Part shown: one piece after another, positions 23,026 to 46,066 of the stretch
How the letters are laid out: every line of letters starts with the position of its first letter
Numbering within the stretch: position 1 is the first letter of the stretch
Notes under the pieces: generated by a model
What the model was told of the DNA's origin: nothing
Seen by the model: the letters and a program-made list of their open reading frames with translations, nothing else
The model's database searches: none
Assembly: GCA_008080735.1 (NCBI GenBank)
Contig: SHMW01000009.1
Span: 28,117-92,116 of the forward strand
Origin: Promethearchaeota archaeon
GTDB taxonomy: Archaea > Asgardarchaeota > Lokiarchaeia > Sigyniarchaeales > SOKP01
DNA: 64,000 nucleotides
Direction: 5' to 3'
Program-made: the position numbers and the translations under genes

Positions 23026-24216
23026 TTAGCGTTCCAATTGCTTTTTCTTATTAAATAAGTCTTTAAGCTCATTTAGAACTTGACCTCTCACATTTTGTTC
23101 GCTTGTCTCTTTAATCTGATCAGATGTCCTAATCTCGAGAGGGACTCCAGACTGAGCTATATGAAATGCTCCACTTTCAATGGCATTTAAACGAGCATCT
23201 ATCTCATTCAATTGTTCAGATATACTTTCTGAGAGGCGGATAACACCATTCATAACTTCTTCTAAGGTCTGAGCTAAACCTTCCACTTTCCTAACAGTAG
23301 GATCTGTGAGGGAAAAATTCGCATTGAGCACATCTTTCAAGTACTTAGAAAATTCAGGTTCGCGAGCGAATTTTGAATATATAGAGCTTAGATAAGTCTC
23401 ATAATCAAAATCGAAATTGTGCTCTTTAAAAAGGTCTTTTATTTTTTGTTTAAGAAGTTCGACATTTAATTTAATTTTTGGATCGTTTTTTATGTCGGGA
23501 TCGTGTTTATGGATTAAAATCAAAATATAAGGGGCTTCCTCTAATAATTCCAAATAATTTAAAATGTCGTCAAAATAATCGAATGATTCATCAAATCGTT
23601 CTGGATCTTGTACATCTATTACATAAATGAGCAAGTCAGTTTGGAGAAAATATTTTTCTGGATCTTGAAGATATTTATCCCGATAGGATTTCTGACCACC
23701 AAAATCCCAAATGAATAAATCCAAATTTGGTCTGTTAAGAGTTTGACGATTTACTCCTTTAGTGGGTTCTAAATTAGATAATTTTTCAATTCCTTTTTCG
23801 AGCCCAACTTTCGATATTATAGCAGTCTTACCTGCGTTATCTAATCCAATAATTATGATTTTCTGCGTTTCTTTGTCTAAAATTTCTCCTTCTCCTTCAA
23901 TTTCCAATAATAAGGAAGAAAGAGTAATGGCTTTTTGTAGATTCGTTTCAAGATTTTCATACTTTTTTTTATATATCTCAATTTTAATTTCAACATCTTG
24001 AGAGAGATTTTCTTTCTTGGTTTTAGTTTGTTCCTCGATATACGTTTTTAAGGGTTCTTTTTTATCTAATTTACCTAATTCTTCTATATATGAGGCTTTT
24101 AATATTTCTGTAATAATTCTCGCTTCATTTTTTTCTAAAAATTTATAAGCAGAGATGGGAAGCTTCAATATTTCTTCTATTGATTCAAACTCACTATTTT
24201 GGTGCTCCTCACTCAA
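23026..24216 (-). CDS. Arf-like GTPase with N- and C-terminal helical/coiled-coil extensions
   Basis: KIIIIGLDNAGKTAIISK (P-loop), LDLFIWDFGGQKSYRDKYL (G3), HKHDPD (G4-like), helical N-terminus and coiled-coil C-terminus. Confidence 0.85.
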   Translation of the reverse strand: MSEEHQNSEFESIEEILKLPISAYKFLEKNEARIITEILKASYIEELGKLDKKEPLKTYIEEQTKTKKENLSQDVEIKIEIYKKKYENLETNLQKAITLSSLLLEIEGEGEILDKETQKIIIIGLDNAGKTAIISKVGLEKGIEKLSNLEPTKGVNRQTLNRPNLDLFIWDFGGQKSYRDKYLQDPEKYFLQTDLLIYVIDVQDPERFDESFDYFDDILNYLELLEEAPYILILIHKHDPDIKNDPKIKLNVELLKQKIKDLFKEHNFDFDYETYLSSIYSKFAREPEFSKYLKDVLNANFSLTDPTVRKVEGLAQTLEEVMNGVIRLSESISEQLNEIDARLNAIESGAFHIAQSGVPLEIRTSDQIKETSEQNVRGQVLNELKDLFNKKKQLER

Positions 24217-24706: not shown

Positions 24707-25621
24707 ATGCCATCTAAAAATGATAACGAGGATTTCTTGGAATTAGATGAAAAAATTCCATGTTGTGATTCTCCCAAAATATCGGAAGAGGATGGATATT
24801 ATGTCTGTTTAAATTGTGGGCTTGTGTTTTCAAGGATATTGGATGACTCTCCTCGTAGAGCATTCACTGCTGAAGAGATAGAAAAGCGGAAAAGTAATGA
24901 AAGAGTATATAGTCCGATTGGTCCTCGAACAATTATACGTGGAAATCGGGATGCTCGAGGCTCCTTATTGAGTCCGAAATTTAAGTCAAAATTCAATAGA
25001 CTAGCCAAAATTCATAGATCTTTGACCACGAGTTTTGAACGAAATTTGTGGATTGCTTTACCTAATTTACAGAGATTACAGAAGAAATTAAGCATCCCGG
25101 ATCAAGTGGCAGAAGATGCCTTACGAATTTATACCCAGACAGTTAAAAAGAAATTGACTATGGGGCGCTCAATTGATACACTATTGTCAGCATCCATTTT
25201 TTGTGCTTTGAGAGTTCATGGAATCCCAAGAACCCTAGAAGAAATTACAAATGCTGCCCAAATTACCAAAAAAAAAGTGATAAAAAGTTATCGCCTTATT
25301 CTGATGGAAATTTTACCAAAACTTAAGCTTAAAGTCCAACATTTTACCTCAGATCGTTATGTTGATAAATTTAATGATGAGCTGAATCTGTCTATGAAAT
25401 GTAGAAATATTGCTGTTAAAATGATAAAAAAAGCCAAGAAAAATGGGTTTAATTCCGCTGGGAAAGACCCTAAGGGGATAGCGGCGGCATCGCTTTATAT
25501 TGCGTCTAAATTGTGTGATGAAAACAAAACTCAAAAAGAAATCTCTGATTTAGCCCAGATCACAGAAGTTACTTTAAGAATGCGAGTTAAGGATCTTAAT
25601 AAATACAATAAAATTGATTGA
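24707..25621 (+). CDS. tfb: transcription initiation factor B (TFB/TFIIB)
   Basis: N-terminal zinc-ribbon-like CC...CLNCG, two cyclin-like repeats (LLSASIFCALRVHGIPRTLEEI; PKGIAAASLYIASKL...TQKEISDLAQITEVTLRMR). Confidence 0.9.
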   Translation: MPSKNDNEDFLELDEKIPCCDSPKISEEDGYYVCLNCGLVFSRILDDSPRRAFTAEEIEKRKSNERVYSPIGPRTIIRGNRDARGSLLSPKFKSKFNRLAKIHRSLTTSFERNLWIALPNLQRLQKKLSIPDQVAEDALRIYTQTVKKKLTMGRSIDTLLSASIFCALRVHGIPRTLEEITNAAQITKKKVIKSYRLILMEILPKLKLKVQHFTSDRYVDKFNDELNLSMKCRNIAVKMIKKAKKNGFNSAGKDPKGIAAASLYIASKLCDENKTQKEISDLAQITEVTLRMRVKDLNKYNKID

Positions 25622-25650: not shown

Positions 25651-28600
25651 TTATAATTCTATCGGCAACAAACTTTCTTCTTCTTCAAAAAGTGGGAGAT
25701 TACGAAGCATTTGATTTATGGTGGATAAGAATTTGTTGATATCATATTCTATTAGGTCAATGATGAATTGTATCATCATAAGGGTAAATAATTCACTTAC
25801 TATACCACGCGATATACCCAATGAATTCAGAAAAGATTCAACATTTTTTTTTACATCGCTTAGCGCAATATTGGTTTTTTTAGAGCATATTACATACAAT
25901 AATAACATTAATGATCCCATTTTATAATCTTTCCGTCCAGCAAATTTCTTTGCTAAATCTAAATACTCTGTTGATGCCTCTTCTAACGCTCCCTTTGATA
26001 AATGCTCCAATATAATATCGTAATATCGTTTCCTCATAGCGCTTCTCTTTTTAAACATCTCCTTAAATTCAGAGCGATTATCTTTTAGTTTCTGATTTAT
26101 TATATCTATTTTTTGATTAAGTTCGCGTAATTTTTTAGACTTTTCTTCTTTCTCTTCTTTTGATAAAAGTTTTTTAGGGGATTTAAATTCAAGATCTTGT
26201 TCTAAATACGACTTTATAAGGTTTTTTTCCATTTCGAATAATATAAGATTATCCTTGAAAAAATTAAGCGAAAGTTGTATCAAATCATCAATTTTAGCTT
26301 GCCACGCTTTCAAAAATTCTTTTAAAAGCCTAATTTCTGGAAGTGTTGAAAGTCGTGTATGTTCACCCAATAATTTTTCCAGATTAGTATATGCTATCTC
26401 CTCATGTTCGTTAAATATAAAAATTAACGTAGAAAGTATCAAACACACAGCCGCATGTTTTTCAAAATCTTTATCAATAAGTTCCTGAATGAGATCATTA
26501 TAAGTTGATGCTGCTTTTATATATTCATCTTTATTTATGTTTTCCAAAATACCCTCATAATATCTCTTTTTCATTAGCTTCCGTTTTGCTATATCTTGCT
26601 TATCCCTTTGTATATTTTCAGATATGTTAATAATATTCTTTTTTACCGTGTCTTTATCTAGTTCGGTAGATTCTTCTGGTTTAGATGTGGGTTCTCCAAC
26701 ATATTCGACACCTAAGATATCATATAGGAGTTTTTTCTCCTCCTCAAATAGAGGCAGATTTTCAATAAAAGACAATGCTTCTTCTAATTTATTCTGATCC
26801 TTTGCTTTATGGAGATCAATAATATATTCAACTAATAATACAGGAAATGTATCCAAAAAGAGTTGATTTGAAGAAGTGAGAGATTTAATATACTTAGCAA
26901 AGGCTTTTATCTTATCTTGTTTTATTCGAATCAGTGAAAGAATTGCGAGTGATACTGCCGCAAGATAATATTTTCGAAGATCATTCATTTTTTCTACAGT
27001 ATTTTTATAAATTTCTGCTGCTTTCTCATATTCTTCATTTTCTAATAGTTTAAGACCTTCGTTAAAATATGCTCGTTTTAATCCTTTTCGCTGCCTTAAT
27101 TCAAATTCTTTATCCAACCGGGCATCTTGTGATTTTTTTTTTATAATTGATAATCTTTCTTGTAATGATTTCTTTTTCAGCGCCGCTTCAACTTCTTTAG
27201 CCCGAGAGGCGATCATTTCCTCTTCTGAGCTTGATAATTTATTGTAAACTTCTTTTTTATAGAATTTATCTTCAATTTTATCCAGATAACTTAAAGCGGA
27301 AGATAAATCTCCTAATTCAATGAATTGTTCGGAAATAACTTTATATATTTCGTCAAAGTCAGGTTCGTAATTTTCCAAATATGCATTTGAAATATTTTGT
27401 GCTCTCTTTATTAATTCAATTGCATAATTTATGCTTGATCGACTCTCCTCTCGCTTAATACTATTTAAAGCTTCTTTATTTATGATTGTGATGAATAGTT
27501 TGCTTAGTTCTTGAGATTGTTCATAAAGCATTTGATCTCGATATATTGAATTGGCTTTCTCTAGCAAGTCTTCAATTTTTTCATAACTGGATATCTCACT
27601 TAATTGCTTTATACTTTCTATTAAAAATGGAAATGCTTGTTTAAGATATTCCTTTTTAATTGTTTTAGTTTTTATCATCAGATAGGTATCAAAAAATTTT
27701 TCTATTTGATTTCCTTCTAATAAAATGTTCAAAGATTCACATAAGAGATCATCAGCTATCTTTTGCTCTCCAATATTTATAAGTTCTCTTGCATGAGATT
27801 CTAAGTAAGCTGCCGCTCTTATATAATGGTTTTTTTCTACGAGCGTATTAGCGTTTTTCAGTTTTTCTTTATTTAGAGATTCAATTAGTTCATTTTCTGA
27901 TTTCATAAAGGAATTGATAATCTCAATTCCCTCTTTTAAATCTCTTTGTAGAGCTTCTCTTCGTAATTTTTTATTCTCATCTTCTACTTCAGAAGTATAT
28001 TCTGTTAATTCCTTTTTAAGAGCTAAAGAATCAATTTCATTTAGTAGGTACGTTGCCATTCCAAAGTCTTGTTTATGTAGGAATTGTTTTATGATTTCTT
28101 CTAAATGTTCATCTAGATTAATTTTTTCCACATCAAATGCTTCCCACATATTTTCGATCTCATCATAAGTTTTCTTCGCTTCATAGGTTTCCTTATTGTT
28201 GATATTTTTTTCCAATATCTTAATTAATATTTCAACGAGTTTATCAGTGAATTTTTCCATTGATTCAAAAAGGCCTTCCCTCTGATAGGTGTGGATGCTA
28301 ATATATAATTGTTCCCTTGCTGCTCTCAAATTACCAATCGAAACGAGATAATCTGCCGCTGATAATACTTTTTCTGTTAAATCTTCCAGAGTCTGTTTTA
28401 TTTCTTGATGAGGTAATCTCTCTAATATAGTAAATGCATTTTCTACTCGACACGCAGATATCCAAGAATTTATCGCCAATTTAAATGATTTTATAATTAA
28501 ATCTTTATTTTTAAGTTCGATTAAAGACCATTGGGCAGCACTTTCATATTGACGTGCGGCAAACTCATAATCGCCCTTTGTAAATAATTTATTCCCTTCA

Positions 28601-29358
28601 CGTATCATTGTCTCAGCATATAAGCGTTTATATTCTTTAGCTTTTCGCTTGTTTACATCTTCTATGATTTGAGCAGCTTCTAAAAAAAGATTCATTTGAG
28701 AATATAAATATGCCGCTTGTTCGCTGATAATATAATAATCTTCTCGTTCAAATATATTACTAATAAAAGCTGCTTTTTTAATTGACTTTGCGGCCTCATA
28801 AAAATTACGGTTTTCGTAATAATAATTCGCCTGCATTATTAGGATGGGAAATCGAAGCCATGCGTTTTCAAGATCTAAAGGATTATCACCCGAAATCATT
28901 GCAGAACACAGACAATGAAGTGCTTGACGGAAGTCTTTCGGGTGGAGATTGACAAATGTTTCATAATCAGGATATCTTATCCATGATTCTTCCAACAATT
29001 CTGTGATTGAGATGGAAAGGATACCATCTTCATTATAATACATTAAAATGGTTGGAATATCTCTTTTAATTTTTTTGAAAATGTCAAGAATAATTTGAAA
29101 TAATTCTCTTTCTTGGTTATCTAAAGGATTCATAAAGTATAATATACCATCCACACTAGGTATAATCTCATCAAAGTTAGCAGTTTCGCTGGTAACCACA
29201 TCTATTTCTAAATCACATATATTTTCTAAAACATGAAGTTCTCGGTTCCATTTCACGAAAGTTTCTTTATCTTTTCCCATCTCATTTAGGGCTGTTGAAA
29301 CATAAGGTAAAGATAGATCAGAATTACCCAACACTAAGATTCTAAAAATATATCTCAT
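25651..29358 (-). CDS. large alpha-solenoid (TPR/SNAP-like) protein with degenerate GTPase-like N-terminal domain
   Basis: 1235 aa; N-term FRILVLGNSDLSLPYVSTAL...VDGILYFMNPLD...ILMYYNED resembles a GTPase fold without the GxxxxGK[ST] P-loop; then many helical repeats (NYYYENRNFYEAAKSIKKAAF; GNKLFTKGDYEFAARQYESAAQ). Confidence 0.65.
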   Translation of the reverse strand: MRYIFRILVLGNSDLSLPYVSTALNEMGKDKETFVKWNRELHVLENICDLEIDVVTSETANFDEIIPSVDGILYFMNPLDNQERELFQIILDIFKKIKRDIPTILMYYNEDGILSISITELLEESWIRYPDYETFVNLHPKDFRQALHCLCSAMISGDNPLDLENAWLRFPILIMQANYYYENRNFYEAAKSIKKAAFISNIFEREDYYIISEQAAYLYSQMNLFLEAAQIIEDVNKRKAKEYKRLYAETMIREGNKLFTKGDYEFAARQYESAAQWSLIELKNKDLIIKSFKLAINSWISACRVENAFTILERLPHQEIKQTLEDLTEKVLSAADYLVSIGNLRAAREQLYISIHTYQREGLFESMEKFTDKLVEILIKILEKNINNKETYEAKKTYDEIENMWEAFDVEKINLDEHLEEIIKQFLHKQDFGMATYLLNEIDSLALKKELTEYTSEVEDENKKLRREALQRDLKEGIEIINSFMKSENELIESLNKEKLKNANTLVEKNHYIRAAAYLESHARELINIGEQKIADDLLCESLNILLEGNQIEKFFDTYLMIKTKTIKKEYLKQAFPFLIESIKQLSEISSYEKIEDLLEKANSIYRDQMLYEQSQELSKLFITIINKEALNSIKREESRSSINYAIELIKRAQNISNAYLENYEPDFDEIYKVISEQFIELGDLSSALSYLDKIEDKFYKKEVYNKLSSSEEEMIASRAKEVEAALKKKSLQERLSIIKKKSQDARLDKEFELRQRKGLKRAYFNEGLKLLENEEYEKAAEIYKNTVEKMNDLRKYYLAAVSLAILSLIRIKQDKIKAFAKYIKSLTSSNQLFLDTFPVLLVEYIIDLHKAKDQNKLEEALSFIENLPLFEEEKKLLYDILGVEYVGEPTSKPEESTELDKDTVKKNIINISENIQRDKQDIAKRKLMKKRYYEGILENINKDEYIKAASTYNDLIQELIDKDFEKHAAVCLILSTLIFIFNEHEEIAYTNLEKLLGEHTRLSTLPEIRLLKEFLKAWQAKIDDLIQLSLNFFKDNLILFEMEKNLIKSYLEQDLEFKSPKKLLSKEEKEEKSKKLRELNQKIDIINQKLKDNRSEFKEMFKKRSAMRKRYYDIILEHLSKGALEEASTEYLDLAKKFAGRKDYKMGSLMLLLYVICSKKTNIALSDVKKNVESFLNSLGISRGIVSELFTLMMIQFIIDLIEYDINKFLSTINQMLRNLPLFEEEESLLPIEL

Positions 29359-29487: not shown

Positions 29488-30141
29488 ATGGACTACGTGG
29501 AAAGAAATTATGAGATTTTAGAGCAAAAAATGATTGAGAGTATGGAAAATGCTCTGGAATTTGGACGGGAACTAATAGATTCCGAACTCGATGCGGGGTT
29601 TTTTAACGCTCTTGTTAAACCTGTATTAAAAACCTTTTATGATTATTGGTGTGATAAGGACGCGCGGACGGGAACCAAAAAACAGATAAAAGTTACATTG
29701 GACATTGCCAAAAAAATGGTTGAGAATGGCTCAGATGAAAAATTTGAAAACTTAATTGAGGATAATTTTCAAGAATATCTTAGTGGGGATCAAACCTATA
29801 TTTATTGTAGTAAGAATCATAAGAATTTTGAAAGGTTAAAAAAAATTACTAAAAAGTGTTTTGTCTCGCAAGTAAAAGATGCAGTACGATTTCTAAAAGT
29901 TCAAGATAATGTAAGTTCTTATAATGAATTAACTCGTACTGTGTTTGAAACGAAAGATGAGGCATACGATTCCCTGTCCCGACAATTGGATTTTAATGAT
30001 GAGGGAATACGAATTGTTGAAGAAGATCCTTCCATCTTGACTGTTCCTACAGGAAAAAAAATAATCCTAAAAATTCTACGAAAAGGATTTGAAGAAACTA
30101 AGAGAGAATTGATTAATCGTTTGGACGAGATCTATTGCTAA
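29488..30141 (+). CDS. hypothetical protein
   Basis: 217-aa ORF with good length and start context; no family recognised. Confidence 0.55.
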   Translation: MDYVERNYEILEQKMIESMENALEFGRELIDSELDAGFFNALVKPVLKTFYDYWCDKDARTGTKKQIKVTLDIAKKMVENGSDEKFENLIEDNFQEYLSGDQTYIYCSKNHKNFERLKKITKKCFVSQVKDAVRFLKVQDNVSSYNELTRTVFETKDEAYDSLSRQLDFNDEGIRIVEEDPSILTVPTGKKIILKILRKGFEETKRELINRLDEIYC

Positions 30142-30181: not shown

Positions 30182-31279
30182 ATGAGTGTTGATCATAATC
30201 GAGAAGATAATATTGAAGGGGGAAAACCTTCCAGTACTCCAGAAAATAGCTTAACTAAGAAAATTTTTCTGAATCTTCTCATAGGAATGTTCTTTCTCAT
30301 GGTTTACTTCTATTTTTCTCAAAGTTTTGGATCCATCTCCACATCGTTCATTAAAAATCCCGAATTATCAATTCAATTCGGAGCTACTTTATTAATATTC
30401 ACATTTCTTTCAGTGTTAGCAGGGCCTATACGTGCGACGATTTTGGGATTTTTGGGGGAATTAATCTATCAGCTTTCCTTTTATGAAAGTCTTAAAATAG
30501 AATGGAGTATAATTGTGGCATTAATAGGATTAACTGTTAGTATCTATAAATACAAGCCCTTGAAATATAAAGATGGGATAAAAGTATATTATACGTTTCT
30601 GACATTGATGATTTCGTCGGTGTTGATAAGTGTTTTAATTGGAGCGGTACAATTTATCATATCTCCATCAATGAGCTTGGAAACAATTATTGGAGATTAT
30701 GGATTCAATTATTTTATGCAAGCACTTCTTTCCATCGTGTTTATTGTACCCTTTCTTCTATTATTGTATGATCGATTTTTAGCAAAAAAAGAACGTCATA
30801 TATATCATTTATTTCTCACTCATCATCCAATATATCAAAGCGACCATACCTTTTTTCTAAAATTCGGCAGAACCTATATATATTTTTGTTCACGTTGTTC
30901 TGGGGCAATACTCGGAGGAATTTTTACAGCATTCTTAATAGATATTCTCCGCAAAGCAATTGGATTTAGTATCAGTCCCGAATTAGCAGTGTGGTTATGT
31001 ATTTTTTTACCCATCCCGGGAATAATAGATTGGGGCACACAGCGATTATTATACCGTAAGAGTACCACGGAATCCAGATTATTTACGGGTTTTATAATTG
31101 GAGTCGCTCTCTATTTTCTAGCCTTCACTGATCAATATTATTTCTTCATGCTTTTTCTTGTGATTTTTTATTTTTCATTAGTGGGTATTCTTATGTGGTT
31201 GGGTCAAAAAAGAGCACTGAAACAAGAACAAGAGGCAGAGAATAATATTCCTTCTTTCGAAGAGGATCAATATGAGTAA
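30182..31279 (+). CDS. multi-pass membrane protein with C-terminal DUF2085-like domain
   Basis: FGRTYIYFCSRCSGAILGG...PIPGIIDWGTQ resembles DUF2085 (FGxxxPvCxRCxGxYxG; P..iDg..Q). Confidence 0.6.
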   Translation: MSVDHNREDNIEGGKPSSTPENSLTKKIFLNLLIGMFFLMVYFYFSQSFGSISTSFIKNPELSIQFGATLLIFTFLSVLAGPIRATILGFLGELIYQLSFYESLKIEWSIIVALIGLTVSIYKYKPLKYKDGIKVYYTFLTLMISSVLISVLIGAVQFIISPSMSLETIIGDYGFNYFMQALLSIVFIVPFLLLLYDRFLAKKERHIYHLFLTHHPIYQSDHTFFLKFGRTYIYFCSRCSGAILGGIFTAFLIDILRKAIGFSISPELAVWLCIFLPIPGIIDWGTQRLLYRKSTTESRLFTGFIIGVALYFLAFTDQYYFFMLFLVIFYFSLVGILMWLGQKRALKQEQEAENNIPSFEEDQYE

Positions 31280-38207: not shown

Positions 38208-38864
38208 TTATTTATCCTGAGCTTCTTGATAATTTCTTAATACATAATAGAGCGCTTGCTTTAAATCTCCTAAATTTGTTTTTTTTAATGCGGAAAACTC
38301 TAAATAGGGTAGCGCTTGCGCATAGTCATACCCGAAATCGTCCAAATGCACAAGATTCAACCCATATTGTCTTGCTGTGTTAACAAAATAAGTTATAATT
38401 CTTCTTTTATCAAAAACAGATACTTTGTCAACTTTATTGATTAAAATTATGAGTGGGATAGCGAATTCCAGCAAAAATGTAATCAATTCAAAGCTCAAGG
38501 GAATTGTCTGCTTCTTTTTATAAAAATATTTCTCAAGCTCGTCCTCAATCCTTAAGATATTAATGACCACTAATCCTAAAAAATATCTCCTGTGGTGTTT
38601 TTCGATATGCGAGATAGTCTGTTTCTTAATATGTTCCTCTCGTCGATGACTGCTTTTTTTGGCAAATCCAAATCCTGGCAGATCTACTATTTCGTACTGC
38701 ATATCTTCCTGGTGGATCGGTTTGATCAGTAAGGTACTTCCAGGAGTCTTTCCAATTTTACCTTTATATCCGCTGGGGTTTGACAAAAGGAGTTTTGTGA
38801 TAGTACTTTTACCCGTATTAGCATTCCCGATGATTAATAATCGAGGGTGTAAAACGTGCGCCAT
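38208..38864 (-). CDS. engB: EngB/YihA-family GTP-binding protein
   Basis: LLIIGNANTGKSTITKLLL, GKTPGSTLLI, EIVDLPGFGFA, INKVDKV, HRR...RR. Confidence 0.85.
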   Translation of the reverse strand: MAHVLHPRLLIIGNANTGKSTITKLLLSNPSGYKGKIGKTPGSTLLIKPIHQEDMQYEIVDLPGFGFAKKSSHRREEHIKKQTISHIEKHHRRYFLGLVVINILRIEDELEKYFYKKKQTIPLSFELITFLLEFAIPLIILINKVDKVSVFDKRRIITYFVNTARQYGLNLVHLDDFGYDYAQALPYLEFSALKKTNLGDLKQALYYVLRNYQEAQDK

Positions 38865-45075: not shown

Positions 45076-45441
45076 TTATTTTAGTATGGTATGATAAAGA
45101 AATCCAAGTCCATGAGGTGTTGCTTTCCAGCCTGTTTTAGTATTCATGAGAAAAAACATTTCTTCGAGCATCGACAAATGATAGTTCAATTGCTCGTCTT
45201 TAAATTGAAAATGCTCGTTCAATTCATCAAAAGAGCGCGCATGAATATCAATAAATTTGAGAATCTCCCGTCGCGTCTTATTGGTCATAACGGAATAGAG
45301 ATGATCATGTTCGTCTTTTGGATCAATATGTTCTGTTTTCTTTAAATATTCGTCCATTTCCTCTTTACTTAAGATACATTTATCTAATATATCATGGCTT
45401 CCGACAAATGTAGAATGGTAGATATCATCATCCTGTTTCAT
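45076..45441 (-). CDS. ArsR-like winged-helix regulator (paralogue of 45701..46066)
   Basis: HDHLYSVMTNKTRREILKFIDIHARSFDELNEHFQFKDEQLNYHLSMLEEM. Confidence 0.75.
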   Translation of the reverse strand: MKQDDDIYHSTFVGSHDILDKCILSKEEMDEYLKKTEHIDPKDEHDHLYSVMTNKTRREILKFIDIHARSFDELNEHFQFKDEQLNYHLSMLEEMFFLMNTKTGWKATPHGLGFLYHTILK

Positions 45442-45700: not shown

Positions 45701-46066
45701 TTATCTTAAGATTGTATGATACAAGAAGCCGAGTCCTCGTGGAGTTGCTTTCCAGCCGCTTTTAGTATTTATAATGAAATAGACATTCTCGAGCATAGGG
45801 AGATGATAATTCAATTGCTCATCCTCTAAACTAACCTTATCCTTGATTTCTTCAACAGAGCGAGCATTAGTATCGATAAGTTTCAACAGTTCACGTCGGG
45901 TTTGATTGGTCATGACCGAATAGAGATGATCATGCTCCCTCTTCGGATCGATTTCCTCAGTCTTTTGTAAGTATTCATCCATCTCCTCGTCTGTTAATAT
46001 ACTTTTATCCAAGATATCTTGATCCCCCATAAAAGGTGAATGATACGGTTCTTCATCCTCCTTCAT
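45701..46066 (-). CDS. ArsR-like winged-helix regulator (paralogue of 45076..45441)
   Basis: HDHLYSVMTNQTRRELLKLIDTNARSVEEIKDKVSLEDEQLNYHLPMLENV. Confidence 0.75.
   Translation of the reverse strand: MKEDEEPYHSPFMGDQDILDKSILTDEEMDEYLQKTEEIDPKREHDHLYSVMTNQTRRELLKLIDTNARSVEEIKDKVSLEDEQLNYHLPMLENVYFIINTKSGWKATPRGLGFLYHTILR

Follow-up and report, generated by a model that had tools for sequence, protein, structure and literature searches.

The locus analyzed here raises the question of what a protein that joins a GTPase-like N-terminus to a very long helical remainder might do in a Lokiarchaeal cell. Lokiarchaea are related to the ancestor from which complex cells arose, and Asgard archaea encode dozens of small GTPases; the genome studied here has at least 64 small-GTPase matches, and to our knowledge little is known about the effectors and scaffolds of these proteins. 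Both pseudoGTPases and TPR scaffolds are familiar in their own right. Our literature search returned no paper pairing "Asgard" with "pseudoGTPase", and, as most subscription papers and preprints lay outside its coverage, this is no proof of absence. We addressed the question by analyzing the gene and its neighbors in a window, here the whole stretch of 64,000 nucleotides, together with homologous loci in related genomes (table 1).

The ORF of 1235 aa is on the minus strand, a point that the earlier note left unstated. It is well beyond chance, because full-length orthologues with 26–51% identity were found in dozens of genomes by a single-sequence search (17–18% for the most distant), which detected homologues in 47 of 61 relatives; the start MRYIF, or a near variant, is common to most homologues. 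Homologues are present in other Asgard genomes: a profile search gave matches in 76 of 232 genomes of the phylum, including two weak TPR-type ones outside the order. These two (in G181 and G053) were rejected as orthologues, being helical proteins, one of them clearly of TPR type, and all true matches fell in four families of a single order (Lokiarchaeales plus Sigynarchaeota). The rows of family f4 were included in the profile, yet they had first been detected with the single sequence (E 1e-22 to 1e-12). The gene is single-copy in its own genome, and orthologues occur in two cultured strains, Prometheoarchaeum syntrophicum MK-D1 (L196) and Lokiarchaeum ossiferum Loki-B35 (L185), and in a Sigynarchaeota MAG (L195). 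This single-copy family is ancient and restricted to one order, and the gene was shown to be inherited by vertical descent. NCBIfam and PADLOC gave no match for the protein, and a PDB sequence search with the whole-family profile returned chance matches only.

Table 1. Features of the locus, with positions in the window and the evidence for each.
Feature	Residues	Position	Strand	Evidence
PseudoGTPase-solenoid protein, whole gene, 1235 aa		25651..29358	minus	ORF and orthologues
N-terminal Ras-like pseudoGTPase domain (predicted)	1-160	28879..29358	minus	AlphaFold, Foldseek, hhalign
Site of absent P-loop (G1), GNSDLSLP	11-18	29305..29328	minus	Motif scan and alignment
Site of absent G4 after strand 5, TILMYYNEDG	103-112	29023..29052	minus	Motif scan
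Solenoid module A1	246-439	28042..28623	minus	Profile-profile match to A2
Long linking helix	445-508	27835..28026	minus	Model
Solenoid module A2	494-691	27286..27879	minus	Profile match to A1 and model helices
Long linking helix	698-759	27082..27267	minus	Model
C-terminal module B1	755-888	26695..27096	minus	Profile match and alignment
C-terminal module B2	925-1056	26191..26586	minus	Profile match
C-terminal module B3	1103-1233	25660..26052	minus	Profile match and alignment
Arf-like GTPase, intact P-loop GLDNAGKT, candidate partner		23026..24216	minus	Pfam Arf 7.8e-25
TFB (TFIIB-type factor)		24707..25621	plus	Pfam TFIIB 1.3e-37
217-aa helical protein, most widely kept neighbor		29488..30141	plus	Synteny
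365-aa membrane-type protein, second conserved neighbor		30182..31279	plus	Synteny in f1 and f2

The AlphaFold model of the N-terminal domain, built from 42 sequences (pLDDT 89.7, pTM 0.87), has the element order b1-a1-b2-b3-a2-b4-a3-b5-a4-b6-a5, which is exactly that of a small GTPase (b1 2-11, a1 13-24, b2 34-43, b3 46-55, a2 62-68, b4 71-76, a3 81-96, b5 103-107, a4 118-128, b6 133-136, a5 140-156), and only two residues form the turn between its b2 and b3, as in the hairpin of Ras. When the model was compared with the PDB by Foldseek, the best 50 matches listed were all Ras/Rab/Rho proteins (E 9e-8 to 6e-7, TM about 0.6-0.7 over ~165 columns), with Rab4a as the best (9.3e-8). In profile comparisons by hhalign, the domain matched 30 Ras-like GTPases of its own genome at 96.0% (E 3.8e-9, colinear over 107 columns) and 20 Arf-like GTPases of this genome at 52.5%. 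The values for eleven neighboring-gene families were 0.2-1.1%, a comparison that is not a pure negative control, since the highest of them (1.1%) belongs to the Arf-like GTPase neighbor itself. A PDB sequence search with the domain profile placed septins (E 0.018) and KRas (1.6) in the right register, at values not significant alone. Together, the model and the profiles show a predicted Ras-superfamily small-GTPase fold. One weak match to the domain (G035:C6) was set aside as an MglA-like GTPase whose P-loop is intact, and a STAND or NACHT ATPase identity was dropped in view of the Ras-like fold.

The G motifs were almost entirely missing from this fold throughout the family. Neither GxxxxGK[ST] nor any GK[ST] was found in 73 distinct homologous N-termini, and the same was true of the G4 motif [NT]KxD (0/73), which is present in 32 of 51 GTPases of the same genome; a DxxG-like G3 string occurred in only two of the 73 homologues, and the G5 motif SA[KL] in none. 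A pseudoGTPase is defined by one or more missing G motifs (PMC5593906); thus, with a small-GTPase fold in the predicted structure and with G1 and G4 absent in 73/73 homologues, the domain is a pseudoGTPase by definition, and it has no intact P-loop GxxxxGK[ST] or NKxD by which to be classed as a functional Ras/Rab/Arf GTPase. We infer from these motif losses that the domain binds no nucleotide. D70, G71, I72, P78, and R99 were nevertheless invariant in the homologue alignment, and N77 nearly so. The median identity of the domain (45%) was about as high as that of the best-kept part of the solenoid (47%), which indicates that the domain is under selection and is not decaying. The earlier note, which had read a small-GTPase strand/loop order in the N-terminus, a loop after the first strand without GK[ST], and a pseudo-GTPase fused to a solenoid scaffold, was thus borne out by the topology, profile, and motif analyses.

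Downstream of this domain, residues 166-1200 were all helical in the AlphaFold model of residues 1-1200 (mean pLDDT 83.8), in which, at a pTM of only 0.42, neither the position of the head nor the global shape can be relied on. The solenoid is built of repeated modules: A1 and A2 match each other in profile-profile comparison (97.4%, E 1.1e-11, 192 columns) as copies of a duplicated module of ~195 residues, and B1, B2, and B3, with mutual matches of 98.6-99.7%, are three copies of a module of ~125 residues, the last of which carries a conserved LPLFEEE near its end. Family members of ~1060-1110 aa are without the middle module B2, whose presence or absence requires eight Fitch changes on the family tree and which was therefore lost or gained repeatedly; in the Sigynarchaeota rows, B2 was partly aligned (47% of columns). 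Such repeated loss fits a length-tolerant scaffold.

The best PDB folds for the solenoid in Foldseek were Ski3, IFT-A, Naa15, Ctr9, and Tom70 (E 3e-7 to 1e-5, 9-14% identity). With TM-scores near 0.1, as would follow from flexibility of the superhelix, these matches indicate the TPR architecture class and not kinship, and this class is all that Ski3/TTC37, the IFT-A subunits, Naa15, Ctr9, and Tom70 have in common with the window solenoid. TPR_2 was matched in 20 of 36 members (best 9.9e-8); in the window protein, Pfam gave a sub-threshold TPR alone (21.9 vs 27 bits at the curated cut-off). These results show that the residues after the N-terminal domain form a solenoid of duplicated A and triplicated B modules and indicate that it is of TPR type. 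The helical, TPR-like character read in the earlier note for the remaining ~1000 residues therefore stands; the matches are to generic TPR scaffolds and showed no kinship with SNAP or coatomer. The alpha-SNAP profile (PF14938) matched only weakly in 4 of 38 B modules used as single-module queries (best E 5e-4), no SNAP chain was among the PDB sequence matches, and a PDB sequence search gave module B no tie to any solved family. COPI and clathrin were absent from the 50 best solenoid folds, where IFT-A appears as a generic solenoid only, and the coatomer/clathrin coat type does not apply to a protein whose N-domain has a GTPase fold in place of a beta-propeller. Weak matches of module B elsewhere in the phylum were set aside, as the proteins are short, helical, and perhaps no more than generic TPR caps. 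In another genome (G057), two adjacent ORFs (L242 2-670 and 679-2022) match alpha-SNAP, one of them above the Pfam cut-off (27.6 vs 25 bits).

We propose, with a probability of about two in three, that the protein is a cytosolic scaffold or adaptor in which a nucleotide-independent Ras-fold head is joined to a TPR-type arm; it is probably a fixed docking scaffold and not a switch. On this proposal, a Ras-superfamily domain would have stopped binding nucleotide before the order radiated, the dead head would serve as a constitutive protein-binding module, and the solenoid of ~1000 residues, with its duplicated A modules, triplicated B modules, and long helices, would be the arm that holds partners together. 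The most tentative element is that the protein may work with the small-GTPase network; in family f1, the Arf-like GTPase next door would then be the most promising candidate.

Known systems offer partial parallels. Class i pseudoGTPases, such as pG1/pG2 of p190RhoGAP, CENP-M, and the fungal dynein light intermediate chain, likewise combine a small-GTPase fold with degraded G motifs, and the domain serves protein interaction or structure inside a larger assembly (PMC5593906). The window protein, which we liken to them by fold and motif loss, differs in being archaeal and in the N-terminal fusion of the domain to a giant TPR-type solenoid, and the absence of nucleotide that was measured in class i proteins is deduced here. 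SgmX of Myxococcus, likewise a large TPR protein, belongs to a prokaryotic small-GTPase system as an effector of the Ras-like GTPase MglA, which it binds through its C-terminal TPRs (PMC11580455), and thus illustrates how a TPR arm could read a GTPase and bring in machinery; the likeness lies in the TPR character, since SgmX is described as TPRs only, whereas the window protein has a GTPase-like domain. By analogy with SgmX and from the gene context, a link to GTPase signaling is plausible. Asgard small GTPases fused to roadblock or longin domains show that GTPase-fold domains are joined to others in the same lineages, but those proteins are described as GTPases, unlike the window pseudoGTPase, and the terms TPR and pseudo do not occur in the main text of this structural survey (PMC10933270).

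A narrower version of the scaffold explanation, and one that can hold together with it, makes the protein a dedicated partner of the Arf-like GTPase, as an effector or a GEF/GAP scaffold, perhaps with the TFB in one regulatory unit. We regard this as a tentative possibility. The MglA effector SgmX shows that TPR proteins can take on such a role (PMC11580455), and throughout family f1 the gene order Arf-like GTPase, TFB, pseudoGTPase gene, 29488 protein, 30182 protein is kept. In an f3 genome (G038), the Arf-like GTPase and TFB genes are also neighbors, about 1 kb apart, on a contig other than that of the pseudoGTPase gene; thus, the f1 arrangement appears to combine two blocks of older origin. 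In family f2, however, only the 29488 and 30182 homologues, which are not GTPases, remain near the pseudoGTPase gene, and G042, G052 (Loki-B35), and G037 have the protein with only generic paralogues of the Arf-like GTPase. As G042 and G052 are closed genomes in which the protein is retained although the neighboring GTPase has no clear orthologue, the small-GTPase link is weakened. The 29488 homologue adjoins the pseudoGTPase gene in f1 and lies near it in f2 and f3; its family, which extends across the class, often in tandem pairs, matched no Pfam or NCBIfam family at cut-off. In a Sigynarchaeota genome (G045, L206 7626-10871), two paired 29488 homologues are found close to an Arf-like GTPase, at a site apart from the pseudoGTPase gene. 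The Arf-like GTPase next to the pseudoGTPase gene forms a tandem triplication in L034 (2909-7021) and is apparently duplicated at G002:C266:1473-3741.

A further hint of partnership came from three same-genus genomes that form one clade, G001,(G003,G004), with support 0.999, and whose syntenic locus is without the pseudoGTPase gene. In G004, 125 bp separate the TFB gene from the 29488 homologue, and G003 is alike; in G001 the TFB gene is missing from the locus too. The profile that matched 76 other genomes found no pseudoGTPase gene elsewhere in these three, in a search that included no positive-control genome; the three genomes, by comparison, are 92% (G004), 61% (G001), and 72% (G003) complete. 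Their best matches to the Arf-like GTPase scored 207-212 bits without the N-terminal part (G003 and G004) and 136 bits (G001), compared with 204 bits for the paralogue in the window's own genome and 282-444 bits in most of the complete f1 genomes; being at the paralogue level, they indicate that the GTPase orthologue is absent as well. The TFB of G003 and G004 is 64-65% identical to that of the window, compared with 79-84% in most other f1 genomes and 71% in a divergent g6 pair, and their flanking markers, unlike TFB, are not faster. Relaxed constraint is a possible explanation, although a second TFB paralogue at 71% in the genome blurs this rate argument. That the GTPase and pseudoGTPase genes were lost together, with the TFB between them kept in at least one genome, suggests a functional link and suggests that the three proteins act together in f1. 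Against the dedicated partnership, the joint loss is a single clade event, with both flanks directly visible in G004 and G001 alone (the G003 contig does not include the left flank). The proposal in the earlier note of an adaptor for GTPase-controlled processes therefore gains contextual support from the f1 linkage and the joint loss in one clade, and loses from G042 and G052, which have no recognizable GTPase orthologue.

It would go further, and we think it rather unlikely, that the Lokiarchaeal protein and the Arf-like GTPase, with the co-encoded TFB in f1, form a GTPase-gated assembly platform. If true, an archaeal alpha-solenoid would bring a dead and a live GTPase together, as is otherwise known from complexes of trafficking, motors, and kinetochores in eukaryotes. 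GTPase-fold scaffolding is well known in eukaryotes, and a conserved single-copy protein in MK-D1 and Loki-B35 offers a concrete test of whether it already existed in archaea.

It is unlikely that the N-terminal domain is instead a sensor that binds nucleotide or another small ligand non-canonically, with the solenoid as its output arm. Such a role would account for the kept alpha/beta fold and the strictly conserved positions described above, and some degenerate GTPases, those of classes ii and iii, do bind nucleotide (PMC5593906). However, besides the universal absence of G1 and G4, G3 and G5 are unrecognizable in nearly all homologues, and no alternative nucleotide motif is evident. Another three-layer Rossmann-type fold that is merely GTPase-like is very improbable: a published description treats the CheY-like receiver as a degraded version of a small-GTPase-like fold (PMC5593906), but the Ras-type turn between b2 and b3, the 50 listed fold matches across the Ras superfamily over about 165 columns, and a profile homology that is limited to GTPases all point away from a receiver domain. 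The scaffold with a dead Ras-fold head is thus the reading we prefer.

Two further observations concern other parts of the window. Another small P-loop protein (GNANTGKST) is encoded at 38208-38864, and the syntenic locus L044 contains a homologue. In addition, the tandem 121-aa ORFs at 45076-45441 and 45701-46066 have closely similar N-termini and represent an apparent duplication.
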